NCBI GenBank assembly: GCA_016209865.1
Contig: JACQVL010000123.1
Location: 1-18,020, forward strand
Direction of reading: 5' to 3'
Source of the DNA: Candidatus Latescibacterota bacterium
Lineage (GTDB): Bacteria; JAAXHH01; JACQVL01
Length of the DNA: 18,020 nucleotides
Made by a program: the position numbers and the translations under genes
In this document: positions 2,152 to 13,902 of the stretch, piece after piece
Layout: every line of letters starts with the position of its first letter
Numbering within the stretch: position 1 is the first letter of the stretch
The notes under the pieces: model-generated
Told to the model about the DNA's origin: nothing
What the model saw: only the letters and a program-made list of their open reading frames with translations
Database searches by the model: none

Positions 2152-3351
2152 ATGCGGCGAATCTACCTTGATCACAACGCGACGACGCCGGTCCGGCCGG
2201 AGGTGCTGGAGGCGATGCTCCCGTTCTTCCGCGAACGGTTCGGGAACGCGTCGAGCATCCACGCCTTCGGACAGGCGGCACGGGCTCCGGTCGAGGAAGC
2301 GCGGGCGCAGGCGGCGAGGCTGCTCGGCGCCCGGCCCGGTGAGGTGTTCTTCACGAGCGGGGGGACGGAATCGGATAATTTGGCCATCAAAGGGGTTGCG
2401 TATGCGAATCGGGGCCGCGGGTCTCATATCATCACCTCACAGATCGAGCACCATGCGGTCCTCAATAGTTGCCAATTCTTAGAACAGGAAGGGTTCACCG
2501 TCACCTATCTGCCAGTCGATTCGGACGGACTGGTCGACCCGGACGACGTGGCGCGTACGATCACGGATCGGACGATCCTGGTTTCCATCATGCACGCGAA
2601 CAACGAGATCGGGACGATCCAGCCGGTCGAAGAGATCGGCCGGATCGCGCGAGAGCGTGGAGTGTTTTTCCACACGGACGCGGTGCAGTCCGCCGGAAAA
2701 CTGCCGATCGAGGTTGACGCGATGTACATCGACCTGCTCTCCATCTCCGGCCATAAGCTGTATGGCCCGAAGGGGGTCGGGGCGGTCTACATCCGAAAGG
2801 GAACACAAATCGTCCAGACGGCCCACGGCGGCCATCACGAGGGGGACGTGCGGGCGGGGACGGAGAACACGCCGGGGATCGTCGGGCTGGGCAAGGCGGC
2901 GGAGCTCGCGTTCATCGAGCGGGAGGCTGAAGCGCAGCATCTGACTCAATTGCGGGATCTCTTGCAGCGCCGTCTCCTCGACGAGATCGACGACATCCGG
3001 GTCAACGGTCACCCGACCCGCCGGTTGCCCGGCACGCTCAACGTCTCGTTCACGGCGGCGGAAGGGGAGTCGCTCATCCTGAGTCTTGATCTTAAAGGCA
3101 TCGCGGTGTCGAGCGGCTCCGCCTGTACATCAGGCTCATTGGAACCCTCCCACGTCCTGCTGGCGCTCGGACTCGACCCGCAGCTCGCGCAGACCTCCGT
3201 CCGGTTCAGCTTCGGCCGGGACAACACGCGGGAGGACGTGGAGGACGTGATGGAGCACCTGCCCGAGATCGTCGCCCGTCTTCGCGCGATGTCTGCACTG
3301 ACGGTGAAGCAAGAGAAAATCCGGGGTTCGGGATTCGGGGTACGGGGTTAG
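2152..3351 (+). CDS. nifS: Cysteine desulfurase (NifS/IscS family)
   Basis: A PLP enzyme that takes sulfur from cysteine as a protein persulfide. The 399-aa product opens MRRIYLDHNATTPVRPEV. It has SGGTESDNLA (69-78), His101, the PLP contacts Asp176 and Gln179 in HTDAVQSAGK, the Schiff-base Lys202 in SISGHKLYGPKG, RAGTENTPG (235-243) and the persulfide Cys325 in SSGSACTSGS. I chose the ATG at 2152 because the family starts there; an ATG at 2113 would add 13 unlike residues, and the open frame back to 1912 runs through the promoters. It heads an operon with iscU (32-bp gap) and mnmA, so it probably feeds both Fe-S assembly and tRNA thiolation. The last eight residues and the TAG stop come from a heptamer repeat array (3324-3351). 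Confidence 0.95.
   Translation: MRRIYLDHNATTPVRPEVLEAMLPFFRERFGNASSIHAFGQAARAPVEEARAQAARLLGARPGEVFFTSGGTESDNLAIKGVAYANRGRGSHIITSQIEHHAVLNSCQFLEQEGFTVTYLPVDSDGLVDPDDVARTITDRTILVSIMHANNEIGTIQPVEEIGRIARERGVFFHTDAVQSAGKLPIEVDAMYIDLLSISGHKLYGPKGVGAVYIRKGTQIVQTAHGGHHEGDVRAGTENTPGIVGLGKAAELAFIEREAEAQHLTQLRDLLQRRLLDEIDDIRVNGHPTRRLPGTLNVSFTAAEGESLILSLDLKGIAVSSGSACTSGSLEPSHVLLALGLDPQLAQTSVRFSFGRDNTREDVEDVMEHLPEIVARLRAMSALTVKQEKIRGSGFGVRG
3324..3351. repeat. Heptanucleotide tandem array, 4 units (GGGTTCG type)
   Basis: Four consecutive 7-base units, GGGTTCG, GGATTCG, GGGTACG and GGGTTAG, make 28 bp. The array encodes the glycine-rich tail GSGFGVRG of the cysteine desulfurase, and the last unit supplies its TAG stop. 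The preceding enzyme is already complete, so the tail looks like a repeat that has grown into, or captured, the gene end. Confidence 0.85.
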
Positions 3352-3382
3352 GGAAAGACAACGGGCACATGAGGATGAGGGC

Positions 3383-3754
3383 ATGTACACCCCGCAAGTG
3401 ATGGACCACTTCCAGAACCCCCGCAACGTGGGAGATATCCCGGACGCGGACGCGGTCGGCCTGGCCGGAAACCCGGTCTGCGGCGACACGATGAAGCTGT
3501 CCCTGAAGATCGTCGACGACCGGATCGTCGACGCCAAGTTCCGGACGTTCGGGTGCGCGGCCGCGATCGCGACGAGCAGCAAATTGACCGAAATGCTCAT
3601 CGGACAGACGATCGCGGAGGCGTTGACGATCACGAATGAGTCGGTCGCCGGGGCGCTCGGCGGGCTGCCCCAGGCCAAGATGCACTGTTCCGTCCTGGCC
3701 GCCGACGGCGTTCGGGCCGCGGTCGCGGATTATCGCAAGCGAGATCACAGATGA
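3383..3754 (+). CDS. iscU: IscU/NifU-type Fe-S cluster assembly scaffold
   Basis: A 123-aa scaffold on which [2Fe-2S] clusters are built with sulfur from the desulfurase. The three cluster cysteines are present: Cys33 in GNPVCGD (with the conserved Asp35), Cys58 in [12 protein letters not shown], and Cys102 in [10 protein letters not shown]. The N-terminus [17 protein letters not shown] is typical of the family and the length is normal. A purine-rich GAGGATGAGGGC precedes the ATG. The final DHR and the TGA stop lie in a CACAGATGA nonamer, and the stop overlaps the mnmA start as ATGA, so translation is coupled. The position between nifS and mnmA suggests one dedicated sulfur-handling operon. 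Confidence 0.95.
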
Positions 3755-3763
3755 CCCAGATAG
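3746..3763. repeat. Nonamer repeat CACAGATGA/CCCAGATAG at the iscU-mnmA junction
   Basis: CACAGATGA (3746-3754) is followed directly by CCCAGATAG (3755-3763), matching at seven of nine bases. The first unit contains the overlapping stop of iscU and start of mnmA. The same nonamer ends the PfkB-family gene at 9490-9516. With only two units here, chance is possible, but the reuse at a second gene end makes a shared origin likely. Confidence 0.5.
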
Positions 3764-4911
3764 AAAAAATCAATGACACCGCCAATCGCCTCCCGCCCCC
3801 CGGCGCGTCCGTCGTCGTTGCCATGAGCGGTGGAGTCGATAGCTCCGTCGCCGCGGCCCTGCTCGTCGAGGCCGGCTGCCAGGTCATCGGCATCACGATG
3901 CACCTGTGGGACTACCAGACGGTCGGCGGCAACGTCCGCCGGGAGCACGGCTGCTGTACCCTCGACGACCGGAACGACGCACGGGTCGTCGCCGGACGCT
4001 TAGGCATCCCGTATTACGTCGTCGATTTTCGTGAGGAGTTCCGGACGGGGGTGATCGAGCGGTTCGTCGCGGACTACCTCGGCGGCCGGACGCCCAACCC
4101 GTGCATCGCGTGCAACAGCCAGGTCAAGTTCGGCGTCCTGCTCGACAAGGCACGCGCCCTCGGCGCGGAGTACGTCGCCACCGGCCACTACGCCCGTGTC
4201 GTCCACGACCCGGAGCGGGACCGTTCCCTCCTGAAGCGCGGGGTCGACCCGTCGAAGGATCAGTCCTACGCCCTCTGGGAGCTGACGCAGGACGAGTTAG
4301 CGCGGACGCTGTTCCCCGTCGGCGGTCTGACGAAAGAGGAGACCCGGCGGCTGGCGGCCCGGCTGGCCCCGCGCGTGGCCGAGAAGCGGGACAGCTATGA
4401 GGTCTGCTTCATCCAGGACGACCGCTACGAGCGGTTCCTCCGGGAGTGGACGGATGCTCATCCGGGTGATCTCCTCACTCTCGACGACCCTATCCGGCCC
4501 GGCCCGATCGTGGATACGAACGGGACGGTGCTCGGCCAGCACCGCGGGTACCCGCTCTACACGATCGGCCAGCGGAAGGGGTTGGGCCTGACGGCCGGCC
4601 GGCCGGTCTACGTCGTGGCCATCCATCCGGAGACGAACACGGTCGTCGTCGGGGCGGACGACGAGTTGATGCGGGACACGTGCCTGGCGGATGCTGTCAA
4701 CTGGCAGGGGATCGACCGGCCAGCCGGTCCGGGCCGGGCGGACGTGCAGATCCGGTACAGGCACCGGAGCGCAGCGGCCACGATCGTCCCGCTCGACGAG
4801 CGCAGCGTGACGATCACCTTCGACGAGCCGCAGCGTGCCATCACCCCGGGACAGTCAGCCGTGTTCTACGACGGCGAGACCGTTCTCGGCGGGGGCATCA
4901 TCCGGGAATGA
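3751..4911 (+). CDS. mnmA: tRNA-specific 2-thiouridylase MnmA
   Basis: It thiolates U34 of tRNA(Lys), tRNA(Glu) and tRNA(Gln) in the cytoplasm, using ATP and a relayed persulfide. The 386-aa protein has the PP-loop [11 protein letters not shown] (24-34), the catalytic Cys118 in [23 protein letters not shown] (143-150), the tRNA/ATP region [10 protein letters not shown], the second catalytic Cys219 in YEVCFIQDD, and the central-domain signature [13 protein letters not shown]. The C-terminal beta-barrel domain ends with [13 protein letters not shown]. The start ATG overlaps the iscU stop. With nifS and iscU just upstream it resembles the YrvO-MnmA arrangement, in which one desulfurase feeds MnmA directly, but an IscU scaffold is included here. 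Confidence 0.97.
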
Positions 4912-4924
4912 CGATGGGGCGACC

Positions 4925-5860
4925 ATGCCTGCCCTCTCCGTATCTCACTCGATCCAACGGTTTTTTCGTCCTTCGTCCTTCGTTCTTTGTCTTTGCCTTT
5001 TCCTCCTGTGGGTGAGCGAACCGGCCGCCGGGGCAGCCTGGATGAGCCGCCGGACCGACCGGGTGCATCTCACGTACCACCAGGACGACCGTCCGGTCGC
5101 TGACCTCGTCCTGAACGCCTTCACCACGGCGTATCCACGCCTGACCGCGGACATCGGGTTCAGTCCGCCGGACACTATCCGCATCATCATCGCCGGGACG
5201 AATCAGGAATTCCAGACTCTGACCCAGGGGGCGGTCCCGGACTGGGGAGCGGGATGCGCCATACCCGATGAGAACCTCATCGTGCTGAAGTCGTCTCGCA
5301 TTCCCGGTCTGGATGCGGATGTGCGGGAAGTGGTCGTCCACGAGCTGTCCCATATCGTCCTGAATCAGGCGCTCAACGGGGCGGATGTTCCGCGCTGGCT
5401 GGATGAAGGGTTTGCGATGCACGAATCGCGTGAATGGCAGGTCTGGCAGCGGCTCTCGTTGACCCTGGCGGTGCTGTCCCATTCCCTCATCCCTCTCCGC
5501 GACATCCGGCACGTGAACACGTTCTCCGAACGGAAAGCGCAACTGGCCTACTTAGAGAGTTCGTTAGCGGTGCGATTCATCTTAGCCCGGTACGGCCGCC
5601 AGGGTCTCCAGCAACTCATCCAGGGGTTCGCCACGGCCGGGACGACGGACGGGGCGTTCATGGATGGCTTAGGGACCGGGATGGACGAATTCGAGGCGGC
5701 ATGGCTGGAAGACCTGACGCGGCAGTACGGATGGCGGGCGCTGTCGGGCGAGGTCTTCTCGTTCTGGGTGATCGCGACGCTGTTGTTCCTGCTCGCGTAC
5801 TGGTCGAAGCGGCGCCAGGCGCGTCTGATCGTCCAGCGGTGGGAACGGGAAGAAGAATGA
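4925..5860 (+). CDS. Membrane-anchored MA-family metallopeptidase (HELSH)
   Basis: A 311-aa exported gluzincin of the peptidase MA-like family. It has an N-terminal signal peptide (about residues 1-37; hydrophobic core 18-30, then SEPAAGAA), a zinc motif VVVHELSHIVLNQ with His139, Glu140 and His143, and a probable third ligand, Glu161 in RWLDEGFAMHE. A single C-terminal membrane helix, FSFWVIATLLFLLAYWS, is followed by a charged tail. It would therefore be a periplasmic protease anchored to the inner membrane; the substrate is unknown. I chose the ATG at 4925, just after mnmA, because it gives a proper signal peptide; the open frame continues upstream inside mnmA. Residues 14-23 are encoded by a heptamer repeat array. 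The stop overlaps the next start as ATGA. Confidence 0.85.
   Translation: MPALSVSHSIQRFFRPSSFVLCLCLFLLWVSEPAAGAAWMSRRTDRVHLTYHQDDRPVADLVLNAFTTAYPRLTADIGFSPPDTIRIIIAGTNQEFQTLTQGAVPDWGAGCAIPDENLIVLKSSRIPGLDADVREVVVHELSHIVLNQALNGADVPRWLDEGFAMHESREWQVWQRLSLTLAVLSHSLIPLRDIRHVNTFSERKAQLAYLESSLAVRFILARYGRQGLQQLIQGFATAGTTDGAFMDGLGTGMDEFEAAWLEDLTRQYGWRALSGEVFSFWVIATLLFLLAYWSKRRQARLIVQRWEREEE
4965..4992. repeat. Heptanucleotide tandem array, 4 units (TTCGTCC type), inside a signal-peptide coding region
   Basis: TTCGTCC, TTCGTCC, TTCGTTC and TTTGTCT follow without gaps, and a further decayed unit may reach about 4999. The array encodes residues 14-23 of the peptidase signal peptide (FRPSSFVLCL), the start of its hydrophobic core. 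Confidence 0.8.
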
Positions 5861-6768
5861 CACTCCGTCACGGCATTGAATACGCCGGAGTCCGGCTGCT
5901 GATCGCCCTGGCGGGCACGGTCTCGCCGGAGACTGGGTTCCGGCTGGGTGGGCTCCTGGGCGAATTGACGTTTCGAGTCATTCGCACACGGCGGCACGTG
6001 GTCATGCAGAACCTCGTCCGGGCGTTTGGAGACGGGTACGGGAAGGATACGATGACGCAGCTTGCGCAGGCGGCCTACCGTCACCTCGGTCAGACGGCCG
6101 TCGAGCACGCCCGGCTCTTAGCGTCCCGTGCGACAGCCATCACTGGGCGGGTTGAGGTGAACGGTGCGGACCATCTCGCGCAGGCCGTCCAGCAGGGACG
6201 CGGCGCGGTGCTCGTCACCGGCCATTTCGGCCACTGGGAACTCCTCGGGGCGACGGTTGCCGCCCTCGGCTATCCGATCTCCGTCGTCGCCAAAGACCAG
6301 CACAACCCGGCGGTCAACCGGCTGATCAACGAGGGCCGGGAGCGGCTCGGCCTGCGCGTCATCCCGATGGCGTCCGCGACCCACGCAGTCGTCCGGGCGT
6401 TGCGGCGGAACGAGTGCGTCGGTCTGCTCGTCGATCAGGATGCGGGGCCCGGCGGGACGTTCGTGCAGTTCCTCGGCGCTCCCGCTTCGACATACCAGGG
6501 TCCCGCGCTCTTCGCGCTGCGCACGGGCGCGCCCATCATCCCGTGTTTTATCGTCAGGACAGGGGTCGAACGCCACCAGGTTGTCTTCGAGCCGCCGATC
6601 CAGGCGGTCCCGGCTGACGATGAGGCGGCGGATATCCAGCAGTACACTCAGCAATACACGACTGTACTGGAACGGTACGTCCGTGCGCATCCGGACCACT
6701 GGTTCTGGGTCCACCGGCGGTGGAAGACGGCGGCACCACGAGAGAAAATTTTGGATTTTGGATTTTAG
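5857..6768 (+). CDS. lpxL: Lipid A biosynthesis acyltransferase (LpxL/HtrB family)
   Basis: A 303-aa inner-membrane enzyme that transfers secondary acyl chains onto lipid A precursors. It has an N-terminal hydrophobic segment, the catalytic HX4E motif in VTGHFGHWELLG (His123, Glu128), then LLVDQDAGPGGTFVQF and TGAPIIPCFIVRT, and the family-ending HPDHWFWVHRRWKT. The chosen ATG at 5857 overlaps the peptidase stop as ATGA; the open frame runs back to 5434 but that part is a shadow of the peptidase. The last five residues (LDFGF) and the TAG stop are built from a TTTTGGA heptamer array. Its presence argues for a lipopolysaccharide outer membrane. Acyl-chain and position specificity are not readable here. 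Confidence 0.92.
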   Translation: MTLRHGIEYAGVRLLIALAGTVSPETGFRLGGLLGELTFRVIRTRRHVVMQNLVRAFGDGYGKDTMTQLAQAAYRHLGQTAVEHARLLASRATAITGRVEVNGADHLAQAVQQGRGAVLVTGHFGHWELLGATVAALGYPISVVAKDQHNPAVNRLINEGRERLGLRVIPMASATHAVVRALRRNECVGLLVDQDAGPGGTFVQFLGAPASTYQGPALFALRTGAPIIPCFIVRTGVERHQVVFEPPIQAVPADDEAADIQQYTQQYTTVLERYVRAHPDHWFWVHRRWKTAAPREKILDFGF

Positions 6769-6776
6769 ATTTTGGA
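6749..6776. repeat. Heptanucleotide tandem array, 4 units (TTTTGGA)
   Basis: TTTTGGA, TTTTGGA, TTTTAGA and TTTTGGA make an AT-rich 28-bp island in GC-rich DNA. The third unit differs by one base, and that G-to-A change creates the TAG stop of the acyltransferase gene (6766-6768). The remaining 88 bases to the next gene hold only its ribosome site. Confidence 0.9.
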
Positions 6777-6864
6777 TTGCGACGTCCTGTTACGTACGAT
6801 GTGGGGGCGTTATTCTTGTGGCACCGGGAATCTCTTGAGAATACAGCTACGGAGGAAACGACAG

Positions 6865-7449
6865 ATGTTCACTCTGACGAGCCGTCTGACACAATCCTTT
6901 CTTATCATCGGTATCGTCGCCAGTTTGATGATCACCGAGATCGTCATGGGGCAACAGTCCGGCAAGGGCGGCGGCGCGGCGGCATCCGCGGCGGGGGTTT
7001 CCTGGACGGTGCCGTCCCGCTGGAAAGCGCAGGGCGACCGGCCGATGCGGGTGGCGACGTACACGATCCCCGTCGCACCGGGCGATCCGGAGCCGGGCGA
7101 GTGCGGCGTTTTCTTCTTCGGAGCGGGTCAGGGCGGGGATGTGCAGTCCAACTTGACACGCTGGACGAATCAGTTCGAGCAGCCGGACGGCAAAACGCCA
7201 GCCGCCAAGACCGAGAAGAAAACGATCAACGGGATCGCCGTCACGACGATCAGCGTATCGGGCACATACCTGGCGTCCATGGGACCGATGGCGGTAGGCC
7301 AGGAGAAGAAGCCGAACTTCAGGCTGCTCGGGGTGGTCATCGCAGCGCCGGGCGGGAATGTGTTCTTGAAACTCACCGGGCCGGCCAAGACGGTGGCCGC
7401 CGCGGAGCCGGAATTTCAGGGGATAGTGGCGTCGTTAAAAAAGATGTAA
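6865..7449 (+). CDS. Secreted protein of unknown function
   Basis: I do not recognise a specific family. The 194-aa product starts at an ATG preceded by a strong GGAGG (6851-6855, nine bases away), which decides the start over the longer frame opening at 6772. Residues 1-30 form a signal peptide (hydrophobic SFLIIGIVASLMITEIVMG). A Gly/Ala-rich linker follows (KGGGAAASAAG), then a globular domain starting VSWTVPSRWKAQGDRPMR, with several Thr/Val-rich beta-type strands, a QSNLTRWTNQF segment and a C-terminal FQGIVASLKKM. The W-x-x-P-x-x-W opening resembles small secreted domains annotated as hypothetical in many environmental bacteria. It lies two bases before the heptosyltransferase start, so the two are co-translated, hinting at an envelope role. 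Confidence 0.8.
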   Translation: MFTLTSRLTQSFLIIGIVASLMITEIVMGQQSGKGGGAAASAAGVSWTVPSRWKAQGDRPMRVATYTIPVAPGDPEPGECGVFFFGAGQGGDVQSNLTRWTNQFEQPDGKTPAAKTEKKTINGIAVTTISVSGTYLASMGPMAVGQEKKPNFRLLGVVIAAPGGNVFLKLTGPAKTVAAAEPEFQGIVASLKKM

Positions 7450-7451
7450 AG

Positions 7452-8480
7452 ATGCCCGCGAACCTCCTTATCATCCAGACCGCGTTCATCGGAGATGTCG
7501 TTCTGACAACCCCGCTCATCCGGGCGGCGCGGGAGCGACTCGCGGCGGTCAGGCTGGCGGTGCTCGTCCGGCCGGACGCGGCGGAGTTGCTGCGCCACAA
7601 CCCGTGCATCGATGAAATTATCCCGTACGACAAGCACGGCAAAGCGCGTGGATTCTCCAGCCTGCTCGCCCTCGCACGCCGGTTGCGACAGCAGTCTTTC
7701 GACGCCGCCCTCATCCCGCACCGGTCGTTCCGGAGCGCCCTGATCGCGTGGCTTGCCCGGATTCCCTACCGCGTCGGGTTCGAGACGAGCGCAGGCCGCT
7801 GGCTGTTAACCGAGCGCGTCCCGTACCGGCGTGTGCACGAGGTGGAGCGGAACCTCGACCTCCTGCGTCCCTGGGAGGTCGATGAGGTCTCCTGCTCACC
7901 GGAATTATTCCCTGCTGAGGATGACCAGGCGTTCGCGGACGAATTCCTGGCCGCGCACGGGGCGGAGCGTTCCGCGGTGCTCATCGGCATCAGTCCCGGC
8001 TCGATCTGGCCGACGAAACGCTGGCTGCCGGAGCGGTTTGCTGAGGTGGCGCGGCGGGCGGAACGGGAGTGGAACGCGCGCGTCCTCCTGTTCGGCGGGC
8101 CGGAGGACGCACCCCTCTGCCGCCAGATCGCAGAGCAGACCGGGGGAGTCCCGCTCATCGCCGCGGGACGGGCGACGCTGCTCCAGTCGGCGGCGCTCGT
8201 CAGCCGGTGCGATGTGCTCATCTCGAACGACAGCGCCATGGCCCACATCGCCGCCGCGATGGGCACGCGGGTGATCGCCCTCTTCGGGCCGACTGTCCCC
8301 GCGTTCGGGTTTGCCCCGTACGGGGTCGACCATCGGATCATCGAACGGTCGCTCCCCTGCCGTCCGTGCAGCCGGCATGGGGGGAAGCGATGCCCGATCG
8401 GGACGCACGAGTGCATGCGCGGGATTGAGGTGGAGGAAGTGTTGCAGGCGGCGCAAAGAGCAGTGACGAGTGACAAGTGA
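7452..8480 (+). CDS. waaF: ADP-heptose:LPS heptosyltransferase (GT9 family)
   Basis: A 342-aa glycosyltransferase that adds heptose to the lipopolysaccharide inner core from ADP-heptose on the cytoplasmic face. Visible are the N-terminal acceptor motif FIGDVVLTTPLIRAAR, the central ISPGSIWPTKRWLPERFAEV (donor-domain opening; the Lys is conserved), LLFGGPED, and the donor motif LISNDSAMAHIAAAMGTRVIALFGPT. A Cys-rich C-terminal patch, CRPCSRHGGKRCPIGTHECM, is seen in many WaaF-type proteins. The open frame extends upstream to 6720, but there it runs through other genes; the ATG at 7452 matches the family start. The last four or five residues and the TGA stop come from a GTGACGA heptamer array. 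The heptosyltransferase I/II assignment is less certain than the family. Confidence 0.9.
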   Translation: MPANLLIIQTAFIGDVVLTTPLIRAARERLAAVRLAVLVRPDAAELLRHNPCIDEIIPYDKHGKARGFSSLLALARRLRQQSFDAALIPHRSFRSALIAWLARIPYRVGFETSAGRWLLTERVPYRRVHEVERNLDLLRPWEVDEVSCSPELFPAEDDQAFADEFLAAHGAERSAVLIGISPGSIWPTKRWLPERFAEVARRAEREWNARVLLFGGPEDAPLCRQIAEQTGGVPLIAAGRATLLQSAALVSRCDVLISNDSAMAHIAAAMGTRVIALFGPTVPAFGFAPYGVDHRIIERSLPCRPCSRHGGKRCPIGTHECMRGIEVEEVLQAAQRAVTSDK

Positions 8481-8483
8481 CGA
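8463..8483. repeat. Heptanucleotide tandem array, 3 units (GTGACGA)
   Basis: GTGACGA, GTGACAA and GTGACGA. The array encodes the VTSDK tail of the heptosyltransferase, and the third unit supplies the TGA stop at 8478-8480. Confidence 0.8.
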
Positions 8484-8520
8484 GTAGACCCAGGGGCAGG
8501 GTTGAGATCATAGCAGAAAA

Positions 8521-8550
8521 CATGGATTCCCGCTTGCGCGGGAATGATAT
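8521..8550. repeat. dRS3-like palindromic repeat, copy 1
   Basis: The core at 8526-8545 is ATTCCCGCTTGCGCGGGAAT, fitting the ATTCCC-N8-GGGAAT form of the neisserial dRS3 element. With flanks it matches the copy at 9524-9553 at 26 of 30 bases, in the same orientation. It sits 17 bases upstream of the PfkB-family start, where a ribosome site would be expected. The rest of the gap 8481-8562 shows nothing else I can name. Confidence 0.85.
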
Positions 8551-8562
8551 ACCACATTAGCC

Positions 8563-9498
8563 ATGAATCCTCCGATTGAACACTCGGCACTCTCGATTGC
8601 CGTCATCGGCATCATCAACCACGACACCATCCAGATGGCGAACGGAGAGGAGTTGCAGGACCTGGGCGGCATCCTGTACAATGTCGCCGTCCTGGCGAAC
8701 GTGGCCGATGCGGGGACGACGATCTATCCGGTCTCTCGGATCGGCCGCGACTGCTGGGACAGGATGCTCCACCTGCTGCGGCCGTATCCGAACGTCGATA
8801 CCCGCGGGATCGTGATCGCCCCGGAAGGGACGAGCCGGAACTCCATCCGGTACGACGCGTCGATGGAGAAGGTGGAACGGTTGACGAACCATATCGCCCC
8901 GATTCCATTCACGCAGGTCGAACCGTTTGTCGGATACGACGCCCTTCTCATTAACTTCATCATCGGGGATGATGTCAGTCTCGATACGCTCCGAGCGGTG
9001 CGGGCGCGGTCAACAGGTCTCCTGTATCTTGATGTCCACAACCTGTGCTTAGGGATCGACGCGGACGGGTACCGGTTCCATCACAGGCCGGACGACTGGC
9101 GGGAGTGGCTCAGCGTAGTCGACATCGTCCAGATGAACGAAGTCGAGGCCTGCCTGCTGGCGGGCAGGCCGATTCACACCGATGATGAATTTGCCGGCAT
9201 CGGCCGGGAAGTGCTTGCCGCCGGGCCGGCCATTGTCATCGTCACGCGCGGACGGCAGGGGTCGGTAACCGTCTCCCGTCGCGCGGGGGCAGACACGGTG
9301 TTCGTCTGCCCGCCAGAGCCGGTGGATCGGGTGGTGGATACGACTGGTTGCGGGGATGCCTTCGCGGCGGGCTTTCTGACAGAATACCTCAAGATGAACG
9401 ACCCGGTCGCCGCCAGCCGGCTGGCGAACTGGACGGCGGGGGTGAACTGCACGCTGGCGGGATTAAAAGAGGTAGGACGGTTCCGGAATCACAGATGA
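8563..9498 (+). CDS. PfkB-family carbohydrate kinase
   Basis: A 311-aa ribokinase/adenosine-kinase fold enzyme that phosphorylates a sugar or nucleoside with ATP in the cytoplasm. The N-terminal sugar-binding region shows DLGGILYNVAVLANV (a GG motif). The ATP-site signature is VDTTGCGDAFAAGFL (258-272), with catalytic base Asp265 and the anion-hole glycines. NxxE-like QMNEVEACLL and VTRGRQGSVTV are also in place. The substrate cannot be told. The start lacks a clear Shine-Dalgarno sequence, and a dRS3-like hairpin lies just upstream; the family N-terminus nevertheless fits this ATG. The stop sits in a CACAGATGA nonamer array. The neighbouring dioxygenase and TIM barrel suggest sugar or sugar-acid metabolism. 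Confidence 0.88.
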   Translation: MNPPIEHSALSIAVIGIINHDTIQMANGEELQDLGGILYNVAVLANVADAGTTIYPVSRIGRDCWDRMLHLLRPYPNVDTRGIVIAPEGTSRNSIRYDASMEKVERLTNHIAPIPFTQVEPFVGYDALLINFIIGDDVSLDTLRAVRARSTGLLYLDVHNLCLGIDADGYRFHHRPDDWREWLSVVDIVQMNEVEACLLAGRPIHTDDEFAGIGREVLAAGPAIVIVTRGRQGSVTVSRRAGADTVFVCPPEPVDRVVDTTGCGDAFAAGFLTEYLKMNDPVAASRLANWTAGVNCTLAGLKEVGRFRNHR

Positions 9499-9516
9499 CA
9501 CGGATGAACGCTGATG
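9490..9516. repeat. Nonamer tandem array, 3 units (CACAGATGA type)
   Basis: CACAGATGA, CACGGATGA and ACGCTGATG, the last more diverged. The first unit contains the TGA stop of the PfkB-family gene and encodes its final His-Arg. It is the same unit as at the iscU stop (3746-3754). Confidence 0.65.
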
Positions 9517-9523
9517 GCACGAA

Positions 9524-9553
9524 GATGGATTCCCGCGTGCGCGGGAATGACAC
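9524..9553. repeat. dRS3-like palindromic repeat, copy 2
   Basis: The core ATTCCCGCGTGCGCGGGAAT is at 9529-9548. It is a direct copy of the element at 8521-8550, so the PfkB-family gene is bracketed by two like-oriented copies about 1 kb apart. Confidence 0.85.
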
Positions 9554-9569
9554 ATGATAGATTGGTTTC

Positions 9570-9597
9570 ACCGACCACCGACTACCGACCACCGACC
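9570..9597. repeat. Heptanucleotide tandem array, 4 units (ACCGACC)
   Basis: ACCGACC, ACCGACT, ACCGACC and ACCGACC, with a decayed fifth unit ACTGTCT after them. It lies in the 125-bp gap before the PhyH dioxygenase, 11 bases upstream of its AAGGAG ribosome site. The same unit family recurs at 13809-13836 (reverse complement) and 13868-13902. Confidence 0.85.
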
Positions 9598-9623
9598 ACT
9601 GTCTTTTCAAGGAGACACTCACG

Positions 9624-10454
9624 ATGCAACCCGGCACGGCTTATGAGCGGTACACTGTCACCGTTGATCAGATCAAATCGTTCCGCGAACAGGGTTTCCT
9701 CAAGGTCGAGCAGCTTGTCCCGCCAGAGGACATCCAGGAACTCTCGGATCACACGATGGGCCTGATTTACGGGCGCATCGAAGTGCCGGGTCTGGAGCCG
9801 CCAGCGCCGGGTCTGTCGATCCAGGAGACCGAGAAACGGTATCTCCGGCTTCACATGCTCCACAGAAAATTGGAGCTCCACGAACGGTACCTGCTGCACC
9901 CGCGTATCCTCGACGTCCTGGAGGTGTTGATCGGGCCGGACGTGATGGCGATGCAGACGATGCTGTTCATCAAAGCGCCGGGCGCGCCGGGCCAGGGGTA
10001 TCATCAGGACTCGTATTACATCCCGACCCTCCCGGACACTCTCTGCGGGGCATGGATCGCCATCGACGACGCGGATGAGGGGAACGGCTGCATGTACATG
10101 GTGCCCGGCTCCCAGTACGAGCCCATCACCCGGAACGTGCAGAAACCGGAGGACACGGACGAACACCAGGAGAACCTGACAGAGATCATCGGGGTGGACC
10201 GGACGAAGGAGGTGCCGGTCATGGCGACGGCCGGGGATGTCGTTTTCTTCGGCGGCCACGTCAAACACCGGTCGATCAAGAACCGCTCAGCCAGCCGGCT
10301 TCGCCGCGCGTTCGTCAGCCATTACGCGAACGCCCGTTCGTACACTGAATGGGGGGGCGGCAACCAGAACCACATCCTCGCCCGCGGTCGCACCCATCTT
10401 CCGTACGCCAGGCCGACGTTCTACCCAGACTACGACCCGGAACGGGTGGCTTAA
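9624..10454 (+). CDS. Phytanoyl-CoA dioxygenase (PhyH) family Fe(II)/2-oxoglutarate oxygenase
   Basis: A 276-aa cytoplasmic non-haem iron dioxygenase, likely hydroxylating a small metabolite. The iron facial triad is His127 and Asp129 in GQGYHQDSYYI and His215 in HVKHRSIKNRS, in the PhyH H-x4-N-x-S context; Arg227 or Arg228 in LRRAF would bind 2-oxoglutarate. The middle WIAIDDADEGNGCMYMVPGS is the usual PhyH core. A clear AAGGAG (9609-9614) sets the start. The stop TAA forms part of the ribosome site of the next gene, a sugar isomerase-like TIM barrel, so the pair is tightly coupled. PhyH proteins in bacteria act on very different substrates, so the substrate is open. Confidence 0.92.
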   Translation: MQPGTAYERYTVTVDQIKSFREQGFLKVEQLVPPEDIQELSDHTMGLIYGRIEVPGLEPPAPGLSIQETEKRYLRLHMLHRKLELHERYLLHPRILDVLEVLIGPDVMAMQTMLFIKAPGAPGQGYHQDSYYIPTLPDTLCGAWIAIDDADEGNGCMYMVPGSQYEPITRNVQKPEDTDEHQENLTEIIGVDRTKEVPVMATAGDVVFFGGHVKHRSIKNRSASRLRRAFVSHYANARSYTEWGGGNQNHILARGRTHLPYARPTFYPDYDPERVA

Positions 10455-10460
10455 GGAGGA
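10452..10460 (+). promoter_or_regulatory. Shine-Dalgarno site fused to the PhyH stop codon
   Basis: TAAGGAGGA: the TAA stop of the dioxygenase doubles as the first bases of a near-perfect AAGGAGGA ribosome site, four bases before the ATG at 10465. A terminating ribosome would be positioned for immediate reinitiation. This decides the start of the downstream gene. Confidence 0.8.
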
Positions 10461-10464
10461 CATC

Positions 10465-11307
10465 ATGCGTCTCACTGTGAGCGGCCATTCATTCGAGTGG
10501 CTCCCGTTAGAAGGCACCCTGGCCGTTGCGAAAGCGATGGGGTTTACAGGGGTGGATATCGCGGGCTTCCACGCCCGCGCGCGATGCAGCCTGGAGCCCG
10601 ACGCGGTTGGGGCAGAACCGGAGAAGTATGCGGAGCATCTGAATGCGTTGCTGAACCAGTATGAATTGCAGGCGGTCGATTTCTTCCCGCAGTTCGGCGC
10701 ACAGCTTACCGAGCGGTCGTTGAACGACCCCGACCCGGCGGTGCGGCAGCAGAACACGCAGTCGTTCCGTGGCATCGTCCGGTTCTGCGAACTCACCCGT
10801 ATCCCCGGGTTCACGATCAGTCCGGGCATCCCCCATCCTGACCGGTCGCTGGAGCAGAACCTGGACACGTCGGGCGACGAGCTCCGGCGGTTGACCGACA
10901 TGGCCGGGGAGCGCGGGATCACCGTCCGCTTCGAGCCGCACATGATGTCGGTGGCGGACACGCCGGAGCGGGCGTTGGCGCTGATCGAGCGCGCTCCGCA
11001 CGCGACGGTGACACTCGATTACTCCCATTTTCTGCTGCAGTACATCCCGGTGGAACGGTGCCACGCCCTGTTGCCGCACACCGATCACTTCCACGTCCGG
11101 CAGGCGCGTCCGGGGAGACTGCAGACCCGCACGGAAGAGGGGACGCTCGATTTTGTCGATATCGCGAGCCGGCTCAAGGCGCTGAATTACCAGCGTTGCC
11201 TCTCGATCGAGTACGTGTGCATCCCCTGGTACGACTGCAATCAGGTGGACTGCCTCACGGAGACGGTGTTCACGAAGAGGGTGCTGGAGCCGTATGTGAG
11301 CGTGTGA
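10465..11307 (+). CDS. Sugar phosphate isomerase/epimerase (xylose isomerase-like TIM barrel)
   Basis: A 280-aa AP-endonuclease-2/xylose-isomerase-like barrel. The metal-site residues fall in the expected strand ends: Glu157 in TVRFEPHMM, Asp185 and His188 in TLDYSHFL, His210 in TDHFHVRQA and Glu249 in LSIEYVCIP. The N-terminus MRLTVSGHSFEWLP is the first strand. Such proteins interconvert ketoses and aldoses or epimerise sugars, or dehydrate inositol derivatives; the exact reaction is not readable. It is coupled to the PhyH gene by an overlapping stop/ribosome site and lies in the same direction as the PfkB-family kinase, suggesting one short pathway of oxidation, isomerisation and phosphorylation, which is inference. 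The frame upstream of 10465 is a shadow of PhyH. Confidence 0.9.
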   Translation: MRLTVSGHSFEWLPLEGTLAVAKAMGFTGVDIAGFHARARCSLEPDAVGAEPEKYAEHLNALLNQYELQAVDFFPQFGAQLTERSLNDPDPAVRQQNTQSFRGIVRFCELTRIPGFTISPGIPHPDRSLEQNLDTSGDELRRLTDMAGERGITVRFEPHMMSVADTPERALALIERAPHATVTLDYSHFLLQYIPVERCHALLPHTDHFHVRQARPGRLQTRTEEGTLDFVDIASRLKALNYQRCLSIEYVCIPWYDCNQVDCLTETVFTKRVLEPYVSV

Positions 11308-11371
11308 GTGAGATGGCGGGGTTCGGGAAGGACAGAAAACGGCAGGGCGACACGGTCGCAGAGATGGAACC

Positions 11372-11707
11372 ATGCACCCTCGAGCTTCACAGTCAGCATC
11401 CTCATCCAGGCTCCCTCCCATACTCCGTGGACTCTTTTGGGATTATGACTTCGAGGTCCTGACCTGGGAAGACGATCGAGAGCTGATTATCTCTCGCGTA
11501 TTAACATCAGGAACCTGGGACGCGATCATCTGGCTACGAGGTCGCACAGGGGATCGTGCCTTGCGGGAGTGGATCGAACGGCGCCACGGCAGAGGATTGA
11601 GCCCGCGGCAGCTTCGCTTCTGGGAGCTGATCTTGGGACTGCCGCACCGTCGGGTGAATGCCTGGCTTGCTGAGCGACAGGTTTGGGATCAGCGGACGCA
11701 CCCATGA
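11372..11707 (+). CDS. Small DUF6922-like protein, probable partner of the AbiEii-type toxin
   Basis: A 111-aa protein with the motif LPPILRGLFWDYDFEVLTWE followed by SRVLTSGTWDAIIWLRGRTG and a helical C-terminus (RQLRFWELILGLPHRRVNAWL). This matches the small proteins often found directly upstream of AbiEii/AbiGii nucleotidyltransferases, which I recall as DUF6922. By position it would be the antitoxin or a regulatory partner; no DNA-binding domain is evident. The stop overlaps the next start as ATGA. Its leucine TTA use and less GC-biased text differ from the flanking housekeeping genes, consistent with acquisition by transfer. The 64-bp gap before it holds a GAGATGG ribosome site and no obvious promoter. 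Confidence 0.7.
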   Translation: MHPRASQSASSSRLPPILRGLFWDYDFEVLTWEDDRELIISRVLTSGTWDAIIWLRGRTGDRALREWIERRHGRGLSPRQLRFWELILGLPHRRVNAWLAERQVWDQRTHP

Positions 11708-12336
11708 ATTGGCATCCGGACGTGTTAAGTGCTGTGCAGAAAAAGGTGCTCAGACAGTTGGGCCCGGTGATGACGCGGTGGCAGTTCTATCTCGGTGGGG
11801 GGACCGCATTGGCCATTCACTTGGGGCATCGCCACTCTGTGGATTTTGATTGGCTCACTGATGAGCGCATCACCGATTCTATGCGCCTGGCTCAGAATCT
11901 CAGGGATGAAGGAATTGCGTTCGTGACCGGTCAGGTCGAACGGGGGACGCTTCATGGCTCCGTGTCTGCGGTGCGAGTCAGTTTTCTGGAATACCGGTAC
12001 CCTTTGCTGAGACCCCTCGTTGTGTGGCCAGAGTTTGGCTGTCAGATGGCCTCACTGGACGATCTCGTCTGCATGAAGCTTTCAGCTATTGCTCAGCGTG
12101 GGTCCAAGAGGGATTTTGTGGATATTTACGCCCTGGGCGTGGAGCATTGTTCTTTGCAGGGCATGCTTCGCTTCTATCAGCGAAAGTATTCGGTCGAAGA
12201 CAGCGCGCATCTCCTCTATGGGCTGACTTATTTTGGCGAGGCTGATCAGGAGCGCATGCCGAGAATACGGTGGGATGTGGATTGGCGAACCGTCAAGAAG
12301 ACGATCCAGGGATGGGTGAAGGCGGTCGCGCGGTGA
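11704..12336 (+). CDS. AbiEii-type nucleotidyltransferase toxin
   Basis: A 210-aa member of the AbiEii/AbiGii nucleotidyltransferase superfamily, in which toxins transfer nucleotides to RNA (MenT-type proteins modify tRNA ends) and some give abortive phage defence. The catalytic core is FYLGGGTALAIHLGHRHSVDFDWLT: the GG(G)TALA loop at 31-36 and the metal aspartates Asp47 and Asp49. Downstream DLVCMKLSAIAQRGSKRDFVDIYAL (about 121-143) is the second conserved block, with Lys125 and Asp137. The start at 11704 overlaps the stop of the small upstream partner. Both genes sit between a metabolic cluster and an exporter, a typical cargo position. I cannot tell whether it acts as phage defence or plasmid-type maintenance. 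Confidence 0.85.
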   Translation: MNWHPDVLSAVQKKVLRQLGPVMTRWQFYLGGGTALAIHLGHRHSVDFDWLTDERITDSMRLAQNLRDEGIAFVTGQVERGTLHGSVSAVRVSFLEYRYPLLRPLVVWPEFGCQMASLDDLVCMKLSAIAQRGSKRDFVDIYALGVEHCSLQGMLRFYQRKYSVEDSAHLLYGLTYFGEADQERMPRIRWDVDWRTVKKTIQGWVKAVAR

Positions 12337-12351
12337 GACGGAGAGGACTGC

Positions 12352-13806
12352 GTGGAAGAGATCGGGGGTGAAGTGGACAGGAATCGTTCTGAAACAGACG
12401 TCGTCGCATCTGCACAGCGCCTGACACCTGGACGCACGGGCGCGCATCGGAAGTGGTGGGTCTTAGTCGCCATCGGGGTCGGCACGTTCATGTCCGCGCT
12501 GGACGGGAGTGTCGTGAACGCGATCCTGCCCGTCATCCAGCGAGCGTTCGGGAGTGACGTCGCCACGATCGAGTGGGTGATCACCGTCTACCTGCTGATG
12601 GTGAGCGGCGTTCTGCTCAGCTTCGGCCGGCTGGGGGATTTGCGCGGGCACAAGCCGGTCTACCTGCTCGGCTTCGCGGTGTTTATCCTCAGCTCGATGT
12701 TTTGCGGGCTTGCCCCGTCCGCCTTCATGCTCATCGTGTTCCGGGCGCTCCAAGCCTTAGGCGGGGCGATGCTCTTCGCCAACGCGCCGGCGATCCTGAC
12801 AAAAAATTTTCCCTCGACCCAGCGTGGCCAGGCCCTCGGTCTGCTCTCGATGATGACGTATTTAGGGCTTACGCTCGGTCCACCCATGGGGGGATGGCTG
12901 ACCGATCAGTTGAGCTGGCGGGCGGTCTTCTACGTCAACGTCCCGATCGGTTGCTTCGCCTTCTGGCTGAGTGCACGCTGGATTCCGCACGATTCTGCCG
13001 CGAAACAGGCGGAGCGGTTCGATCTGGCGGGGGCGGTCATCTTCACGGCGGGACTGATCGCCTTACTCCTGGGGCTGAACCAGGGGCACGCCTTGGGATG
13101 GACCTCGATTCCGATCATGGCCCTGCTGGCCGTGGCCGGGCTGCTGTTAGGAGTGTTCCTGGTGATCGAACGCCGCGTCCCTCACCCGATGCTCGACCTC
13201 AGCCTGTTCCAGAGCCGTCTCTTCTCTGCGGCCACCGCGAGCGCAGTCTTCAACTACGTCAGCGTCTACAGCATCGTCTTCCTGCTGCCGTTCTACCTCA
13301 TCCAGGGGCGCCAGCTCAGCCCCACCCACACCGGCCTGCTCCTCACCGCCCTCCCCATCATCATGGCGATCGCCGCCCCACTCAGCGGGACGCTCTCCGA
13401 CCGGATCGGGTCGCGGTTCCTCAGCACCCTCGGCATGATGTTCCTGGCGACGGGCCTCTTCCTCTTATCGAGGCTCGATGCCCAGTCGCCCCTGCGCGAG
13501 GTGACGCTCGCCTTAGCCGTCTCCGGGCTGGGCACGGGCCTCTTCATCTCGCCCAACAGTAGCGCGCTCTTGGGAGCGGCGCCGCGTCACCGGCAAGGGA
13601 TCGCCTCCGGCATCTTAGCCACGGCGCGCAACGTCGGGATGGTGTTAGGCGTCGGGCTGACGGGCGCGATCTTCACGACCGTCCTGACGCACGGCCGGAC
13701 GAGCGGCTCGGCCACGAGGTTGTTCGACGCGGTGAGCGCCAGTTTCCTCGTCGCGTCCGGGGTGGCGATCTTAGGCGCGCTGACGTCAGTCACGCGGGGG
13801 CGGTAG
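12352..13806 (+). CDS. DHA2-family MFS multidrug exporter (EmrB/QacA type)
   Basis: A 484-aa proton-driven exporter with about 14 hydrophobic helices. Motif A is visible as FGRLGDLRGHKPVYLLG. The first helix carries GTFMSALDGSVVNAILPVIQ, with the Asp of motif D1 typical of the 14-TM DHA2 group; QALGGAMLFANAPAIL and LGLTLGPPMGGWLTD (motif C, antiporter) follow. The gene begins at a GTG with GGAGAGG five bases before it, 15 bp after the toxin gene; the 35-residue cytoplasmic lead before the first helix is longer than usual, so a later start is possible. It ends two bases before a heptamer array in a convergent junction. The substrate is unknown. Confidence 0.9.
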   Translation: MEEIGGEVDRNRSETDVVASAQRLTPGRTGAHRKWWVLVAIGVGTFMSALDGSVVNAILPVIQRAFGSDVATIEWVITVYLLMVSGVLLSFGRLGDLRGHKPVYLLGFAVFILSSMFCGLAPSAFMLIVFRALQALGGAMLFANAPAILTKNFPSTQRGQALGLLSMMTYLGLTLGPPMGGWLTDQLSWRAVFYVNVPIGCFAFWLSARWIPHDSAAKQAERFDLAGAVIFTAGLIALLLGLNQGHALGWTSIPIMALLAVAGLLLGVFLVIERRVPHPMLDLSLFQSRLFSAATASAVFNYVSVYSIVFLLPFYLIQGRQLSPTHTGLLLTALPIIMAIAAPLSGTLSDRIGSRFLSTLGMMFLATGLFLLSRLDAQSPLREVTLALAVSGLGTGLFISPNSSALLGAAPRHRQGIASGILATARNVGMVLGVGLTGAIFTTVLTHGRTSGSATRLFDAVSASFLVASGVAILGALTSVTRGR

Positions 13807-13808
13807 GA

Positions 13809-13836
13809 ATCGGTGGTCAGTAGTCAGTGATCGGTT
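13809..13836. repeat. Heptanucleotide tandem array, 4 units (ATCGGTG/GTCAGTG)
   Basis: ATCGGTG, GTCAGTA, GTCAGTG and ATCGGTT. It starts two bases after the exporter stop and is the approximate reverse complement of the array at 13868-13902. Confidence 0.8.
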
Positions 13837-13867
13837 AGGACGTGCACGCGGAAATCTCTGTGTTTGA

Positions 13868-13902
13868 ACCGACTACCGGCCACCGATCACCGACTACCGA
13901 TG
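13868..13902. repeat. Heptanucleotide tandem array, 5 units (ACCGACT)
   Basis: ACCGACT, ACCGGCC, ACCGATC, ACCGACT and ACCGATG. Read on the minus strand it encodes the last residues IGSR and the TGA stop (13887-13889) of the AlbA_2 protein. It has the same unit as the array at 9570-9597. Confidence 0.85.

Follow-up and report, generated by a model that had tools for sequence, protein, structure and literature searches.

How do short tandem arrays with a strict 7-base period, but with different units, come to lie at the ends of genes? The question is raised by an 18,020-nucleotide stretch of DNA from a Candidatus Latescibacterota bacterium (contig C73; called the window below), which holds seven such arrays. 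A sequence-only reading of the window had described them as arrays of about four units that supply stop codons and C-terminal tails, and had proposed one generating mechanism acting at gene ends rather than the spread of a single element. The source genome comprises 3.75 Mb in 356 contigs and is 83% complete. Around 100 stretches were surveyed, covering about 1.04 Mb (28% of the genome). Some 20 of these were picked via repeat hits and are thus biased; in a subset of 639 kb, consisting of contigs taken without regard to repeats, the outcome is unchanged. Genes were called with a home-made dicodon caller (904 calls), so start coordinates are approximate. The comparison set consists of 15 genomes from the same order and 272 others; no genus or family mate is among them.

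Heptad arrays of the window

All seven arrays are present where they had been placed. TRF calls five of them at period 7 (3322-3353, 4965-4991, 6748-6778, 8462-8485 and 9569-9599) and one, 13868-13902, at period 14; the array at 13809-13836 is too imperfect to be called. They belong to five unit families, in agreement with the earlier count of at least five unit sequences. Their lengths are nearly equal, as had been noted, but a length of exactly 28 bp does not hold: the arrays are better described as n+0.5 units (31-33 or 24 bp) with a fixed phase.

Four arrays contain the stop codon of a gene, and their coordinates confirm each of the four cases reported before. An F6 array (GGGTTCG family; 3322..3353, plus strand) carries the nifS stop TAG (3349-3351) and encodes a 10-residue tail, IRGSGFGVRG; order relatives have neither the array nor the tail. 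An F3 array (GATTTTG family; 6748..6778, plus strand) carries the lpxL stop TAG (6766-6768), and an F1 array, (AGTGACR)3AGT, at 8462..8485 (plus strand) carries the TGA of the heptosyltransferase gene (8478-8480). The fourth, an F2 array at 13868..13902 (minus strand), holds the minus-strand stop of the SLFN_AlbA_2 gene (13887-13889). It is the right arm of an inverted pair between convergent genes, with a predicted fold of z = -3.9; the left arm, an F2/F8 array at 13809..13836 (plus strand), does lie 2 bp past the exporter stop (13806).

The remaining two arrays are associated with gene starts. An F2 array (GGTCGGT on the minus strand; 9569..9599) lies 24 bp ahead of the start of a PhyH-family gene, just outside its AAGGAGA Shine-Dalgarno site. 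An F5 array (GGACGAA on the minus strand; 4965..4992) lies 54 bp beyond the mnmA stop and is either ahead of or inside the segment of a Peptidase_MA_2 gene that encodes the signal peptide. It is inside this segment if the gene starts at the ATG near 4926, as in relatives; otherwise it is just upstream of a later start. Because positions 4965-4992 coincide with the signal-peptide segment of relatives, and the in-frame reading there gives FRPSSFVLCLCLFLL, the array may act as the hydrophobic core of the signal peptide.

The window contains other repeats and genes of note. A dRS3-like palindrome, ATTCCCGC(N)GCGGGAAT, is found at 8526..8545 in the spacer after the F1 array, and a second lies at 9529..9548 on the interior side of the F2 array that follows. 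An AbiEii-type nucleotidyltransferase toxin-like gene is encoded at 11704-12336; its partner may be the ORF that directly precedes it (11372-11707).

Period, length and unit families

When periods 3-24 are scanned with one common scoring rule, the 1.04 Mb contain 172 arrays of period 7 compared to 3 each at periods 6 and 8. Other periods give 0-4 arrays each, except for the multiples 14 and 21 (10 each), and the order-2 Markov-shuffled control contains no period-7 array. In the unbiased 639 kb, period 7 accounts for 106 arrays, period 6 for 1 and period 8 for 2. The excess of period 7 on which the sequence-only reading depended is therefore real.

At a slightly lower cut there are 244 arrays. 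These fall mainly into about nine unit families, and each family has a phase and A-rich flanks of its own. On the G-rich strand, the units read F1 AGTGACR, F1b AGTGAAG, F2 CRGTGRT, F3 GATTTTR, F4 CAGGGGT, F5 AAGGACG, F6 CGGGGTT, F7 GGGCAGT (which belongs to a longer repeat) and F8 CAGTGGT. The start phase is near-constant in F1, F3 and F5. A-rich flanks occur on both sides of F1 arrays and after the array in most other families. Lengths cluster at 31-33 bp; 124 of the 244 arrays are in the 4.5-unit bin, and there is a second peak at 3.5 units.

G-quadruplex formation, with four units giving four G-tracts, has been discussed for the heptamers of Xanthomonas and Nostoc (PMC4692102), and the preference for four units reported by Rehm et al. 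(PMC4692102) fits it, as does the GGG within F6 and F4 units. However, F1 and F1b units have no GG and those of F3 and F5 have only GG, and length, polarity and pairing are the same in these families. For F1, F1b, F3 and F5 this explanation is already contradicted, and for the arrays as a whole it is highly improbable.

Mrazek's group, cited for this in PMC4679880 and PMC4692102, proposed local polymerase slippage that favours 7-base units; copy number would then be set by chance or selection. In many bacterial genomes, period 7 is indeed more frequent than any other long repeat period. Against slippage, identical families recur here at unlinked sites, their phase is fixed, their A-rich flanks are conserved and their lengths peak sharply at 4.5 units, whereas about 325 kb from order relatives contain a single, weak period-7 array. 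Identical whole arrays are also in excess over a null in which unit order is shuffled within arrays: 26 pairs in F1 (null mean 12, maximum 24) and 29 in F3 (mean 9, maximum 18). Units differ by position in F1-F4 (p<0.002). The excess and the positional heterogeneity together indicate that whole arrays, as defined 24-33-bp sequences, have been copied, and have not slipped locally and independently. Slippage is already disfavoured and we give it very little weight.

Arrays of period 8 are rare (16, compared to about 300 of period 7 at a similar cut). One inverted pair of them, CACAAAGA... and ...TCTTTGTG, is found in the window at 1047-1122 between two minus-strand genes; the purine-rich arm comes first, which is the heptad architecture with an 8-base unit. 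Two further neighbouring inverted period-8 pairs are found elsewhere (L032:52-135 and L035:57-135).

Position at gene edges and polarity

The G-rich strand runs from a gene out into the spacer, and the array hugs the stop codon or the Shine-Dalgarno site. By the dicodon calls, 210 of 237 arrays lie closer to the gene on the 5' side of their G-rich strand than to the gene on the other side; the median distances are 6 and 92 bp, respectively. Lone arrays obey the same rule: in spacers of at least 120 bp, 48 are no more than 30 bp from the 5'-side gene, and two are that close to the 3'-side gene. The edge of the gene on the 5' side is a stop for 142 arrays (mostly -20 to +10 bp). For the other 95 it is a start; most of these arrays lie 0-30 bp ahead of the called position, with a peak at 10-20. 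Arrays at starts leave the Shine-Dalgarno region intact.

Stop codons lie wholly within arrays in 49 cases read with the G-rich strand and in 1 read against it, or about 6% of called genes, and mostly 0-6 residues separate the start of the array from the stop. Since arrays mark start edges as well as stop edges, stop supply is secondary and is best seen as a by-product of insertion. The placement of arrays at gene ends stands, but it was incomplete in leaving out the start edges. A role as intrinsic terminator was considered and rejected, as no T-run directly follows the 3' arm; A-runs follow the G-rich arm, so the T-runs precede the C-rich arm and lie inside the loop.

Comparison with relatives and other phyla

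Relative to orthologous spacers, the arrays are insertions. The nifS-iscU spacer measures 31 bp, against 6-10 bp in relatives; lpxL is 96 bp from its downstream gene here and about 13 bp in relatives; the heptosyltransferase gene and pfkB are separated by an 82-bp spacer, where in relatives they overlap by 14-25 bp. In 7/7 comparisons the spacer with an array is longer (28-144 bp), whereas spacers without arrays differ from their orthologues in both directions. The array-coded tails of NifS, LpxL and the heptosyltransferase are not found in the orthologues of relatives, and are array-specific as had been suspected.

The F1 pattern has 159 match positions in the whole genome, none in the 15 same-order genomes, and is present in 2 of the 272 others. 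The F2 pattern is absent from the 14 order mates searched; F3 is found in one of 14 (G011; 13 match positions, same phase). The earlier view of several unit sequences with one architecture is borne out, but each family is a sequence that has itself spread, as the F1 positions demonstrate.

Similar layouts with other units occur beyond the order. At loci obtained by homology to the exporter, Gemmatimonadota (L119, L127) have convergent pairs 1-13 bp from both stops, and Planctomycetota (L122) and Thermoanaerobaculia (L130) have a matching layout. Arrays are also present in a Chloroflexota genome (G293), with 121 match positions of one pattern. Another genome, G079, has far longer heptad arrays of about 8-34 units, of ACAAGTG and ACAGGTT types, on contigs C4 (L182, L197) and C8 (L201, L205); these differ from the fixed 4.5-unit arrays described here.

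Inverted pairs and shared interiors

Neighbouring arrays of the same family within 200 bp are convergent, that is inverted and inward-facing, in 58 of 59 cases. When the 220 bp next to each array are considered, 128 of 281 arrays have an inverted same-family partner on their inner side, and none of 288 has one on its outer side. Families nest, for example as F2-F1-loop-F1-F2, with spacers of 3-12 bp between them. The predicted hairpins are stable (z -3.9 to -9.1). Pairing of families by gene instead of by spacer is not above chance (4/11).

Selection for RNA hairpins between genes, for mRNA 3'-end protection or translational uncoupling, could keep or make arrays whose sequence is free as long as the arms pair. 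Same-family inverted pairing and hairpin stability are in accord with this, as is the position between stop and Shine-Dalgarno site, where REP elements are also located. However, pairing alone explains neither the G-rich-arm-first rule nor the obedience of lone arrays to it; paired arms match no better than random arms of the family; and divergent spacers carry arrays too (14/56). We consider such selection an unlikely origin. The same comparison of arms led to the rejection of recent inverted duplication, which gives perfectly matched arms.

Some pairs share more than their arms. With dRS3-like sites masked, 24 of 1540 pairs of interiors exceed the threshold (0.8 expected); they fall in a few clusters and 21 of the 24 are same-family, and most loops are not recognisably alike. 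Three F3 elements (L063, L086, L098) are 82-86% identical across 88-108 bp, including arms and interior. Four F1b elements (L020, L038, L072, L107) are 76-85% identical (mostly 79-85%) across 78-99 bp, again including both, and F3b elements at two unlinked loci (L014, L060) are also homologous over the whole element. Dispersed copies with terminal inverted repeats and a common interior are thus present in the F3a, F3b and F1b clusters. Nucleotide matches and profile hits that link these separate loci end at, or close to, the arrays. Loop length is family-specific (p = 0.005): 31-38 bp in 7/7 F1b elements, and 41-74 bp in 13 of 14 F3 elements, with 41-64 bp in most copies. Shared arms and interiors and family-specific loop length favour the whole hairpin element as the dispersed unit. 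What is repeated is often such an inverted pair, shared interior included, and not a lone array.

The spacers between arms often hold other palindromes, namely dRS3-like ones and GTAGGGGCGA...CGCCCCTAC repeats. There are 59 dRS3-like palindromes (ATTCCC...GGGAAT) in 1.04 Mb, and 41 of them have a heptad array no more than 150 bp away. Heptad arrays also adjoin a dispersed repeat that measures about 100-130 bp and contains a GTAGGGGCGATCCTTGTGATCGCCC...GGCGAATACAAGATTCGCCCCTAC palindrome; this repeat is found at L065, L103, L042, L105, L037, L026, L045 and L062, with 96-99% identity between loci.

Origin of the arrays

On balance, the arrays are probably terminal inverted repeats that form the arms of short hairpin elements, dispersed through the genome and of a MITE-like or foldback type. 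In families of narrow size an element would be about 95-115 bp long and would consist of a G-rich array of about 4.5 units, a loop and the inverted array; loops would be longer where other repeats, such as dRS3-like palindromes, sit inside. The nine or so families would have the architecture in common but not the sequence. Copies would have inserted into spacers that were often 15 bp or shorter in the ancestor, which would explain why the arms lie directly against a flanking stop codon or Shine-Dalgarno site. If an arm came to lie on the end of a gene, it would provide a new tail and stop: as 7 is 1 modulo 3, an array passes through each of the three frames in turn, and any frame can be closed by a unit or variant that contains TGA or TAG. 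Elements would spread by transposition, with the enzyme supplied in trans, and a lone array would be what is left of an element that has lost one arm.

For over half of the arrays no partner was detected, and their polarity is the same nevertheless, which counts against hairpin elements; loss of one arm would account for this only if the arm closer to its gene is the one that survives. What is explained least well is the strict polarity of arrays that stand alone; it is reminiscent of telomeres and leaves room for addition at break ends. Heptamers would then be built singly onto the 3' ends of broken or processed DNA, on both sides of a break, with the G-rich strand running 5' to 3' towards the end, and the ends would be rejoined, sometimes with filler DNA. 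This could account for the polarity of lone arrays, for the same family on both sides of a spacer, for younger families nested inward, for arms that are not copies of each other, and for filler-like loops that contain other repeats. On the other hand, the 83%-complete genome contains no RVT_1 reverse transcriptase and no Ku, and whole-element copies with shared loops and family-specific loop lengths are not expected from it. We regard break-end addition as doubtful. Its broader form would be a general bacterial process in which DNA ends that arise between genes are extended by about 4.5 G-rich heptamers, polarised like telomeres and drawn from a set of units particular to each genome; rejoining would leave inward-facing pairs that bracket spacers. 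We consider this broader form improbable.

Hairpin elements remain our preferred reading. Also against them stand the missing target-site duplications, the lack of a RAYT-type gene in the 83%-complete genome, the mostly dissimilar loops, and paired arms that are no more alike than random arms of the family. A larger element with matching ends around a transposase was not found in the sampled 28% either; the two candidates checked contain ordinary genes (PhyH, BshC).

Comparison with known systems

What looked like a curiosity of one heptamer is a sequence-independent architecture with fixed length, strict gene-edge polarity, inverted pairing and several families per genome, and similar layouts occur in at least four other lineages. 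Such independence from sequence argues against G-quadruplex and slippage explanations, and makes the generating mechanism testable. The architecture would also account for the nonsense C-terminal tails that recur among metagenome proteins, and for the way in which such elements alter gene ends and the spacing between cistrons.

MITEs and foldback elements are short, dispersed inverted-repeat elements without genes, and the arms of foldback elements are short tandem repeats. The elements described here differ in that no target-site duplication is detected (flank similarity equals that of shuffled flanks in all six families compared), no autonomous partner is found in the 28% sampled, and loops are mostly divergent. 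They are named MITE-like, and not filed as MITEs, because of the first of these differences. REP/BIME elements with their RAYTs are likewise short intergenic hairpins near stop codons and occur as inverted pairs; in the present case no single-unit palindrome defines the arms, and the 83%-complete genome has no RAYT-type Y1_Tnp (PF01797) gene.

Heptameric tandem repeats are known from several bacteria. The STRR of heterocystous cyanobacteria, compared here by description, comprise three defined heptameric units in Calothrix according to the introduction of PMC4692102. The TAACTGA direct repeats of Beggiatoaceae form intergenic arrays of 2-6 units, some of which overlap stop codons (MacGregor 2015, PMC4679880). 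In this they resemble the arrays described here; unlike them, they have one unit, mostly point towards start codons and are essentially direct, with one indirect repeat.

The closest likeness is to the GGGAATC repeats of two Xanthomonas genomes (Rehm et al. 2015, PMC4692102), for which a four-unit preference, closeness to the 5'-side ORF, the same strand rule as here and convergent pairs were described; similar repeats, GGGGA(C/T)T, were reported in Nostoc, and function was left open. Period 7, about four units, dispersal, intergenic location and convergent pairs are all found here as well. There, each genome has one unit family, read as G-quadruplexes, whereas about nine families coexist here, several without G-tracts. 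F1, F1b, F3 and F5 lack GGG (no GGGANTN or GGGGAYT unit), and the present arrays are therefore a variant of that type, outside its sequence family. Further features documented here are whole-element copies, nesting and stops supplied by arrays; dispersal as a hairpin element was not proposed there. In open-licence papers we found no generalisation of the heptad-repeat architecture. A copy number near four and inverted pairing are thus on record for Xanthomonas and Nostoc, in each case for one G-rich heptamer (PMC4692102); new here are the many families side by side, several of them incapable of G-quadruplexes and some without a G-tract in the unit, the evidence for whole-element dispersal, nesting, and recurrence in other phyla.
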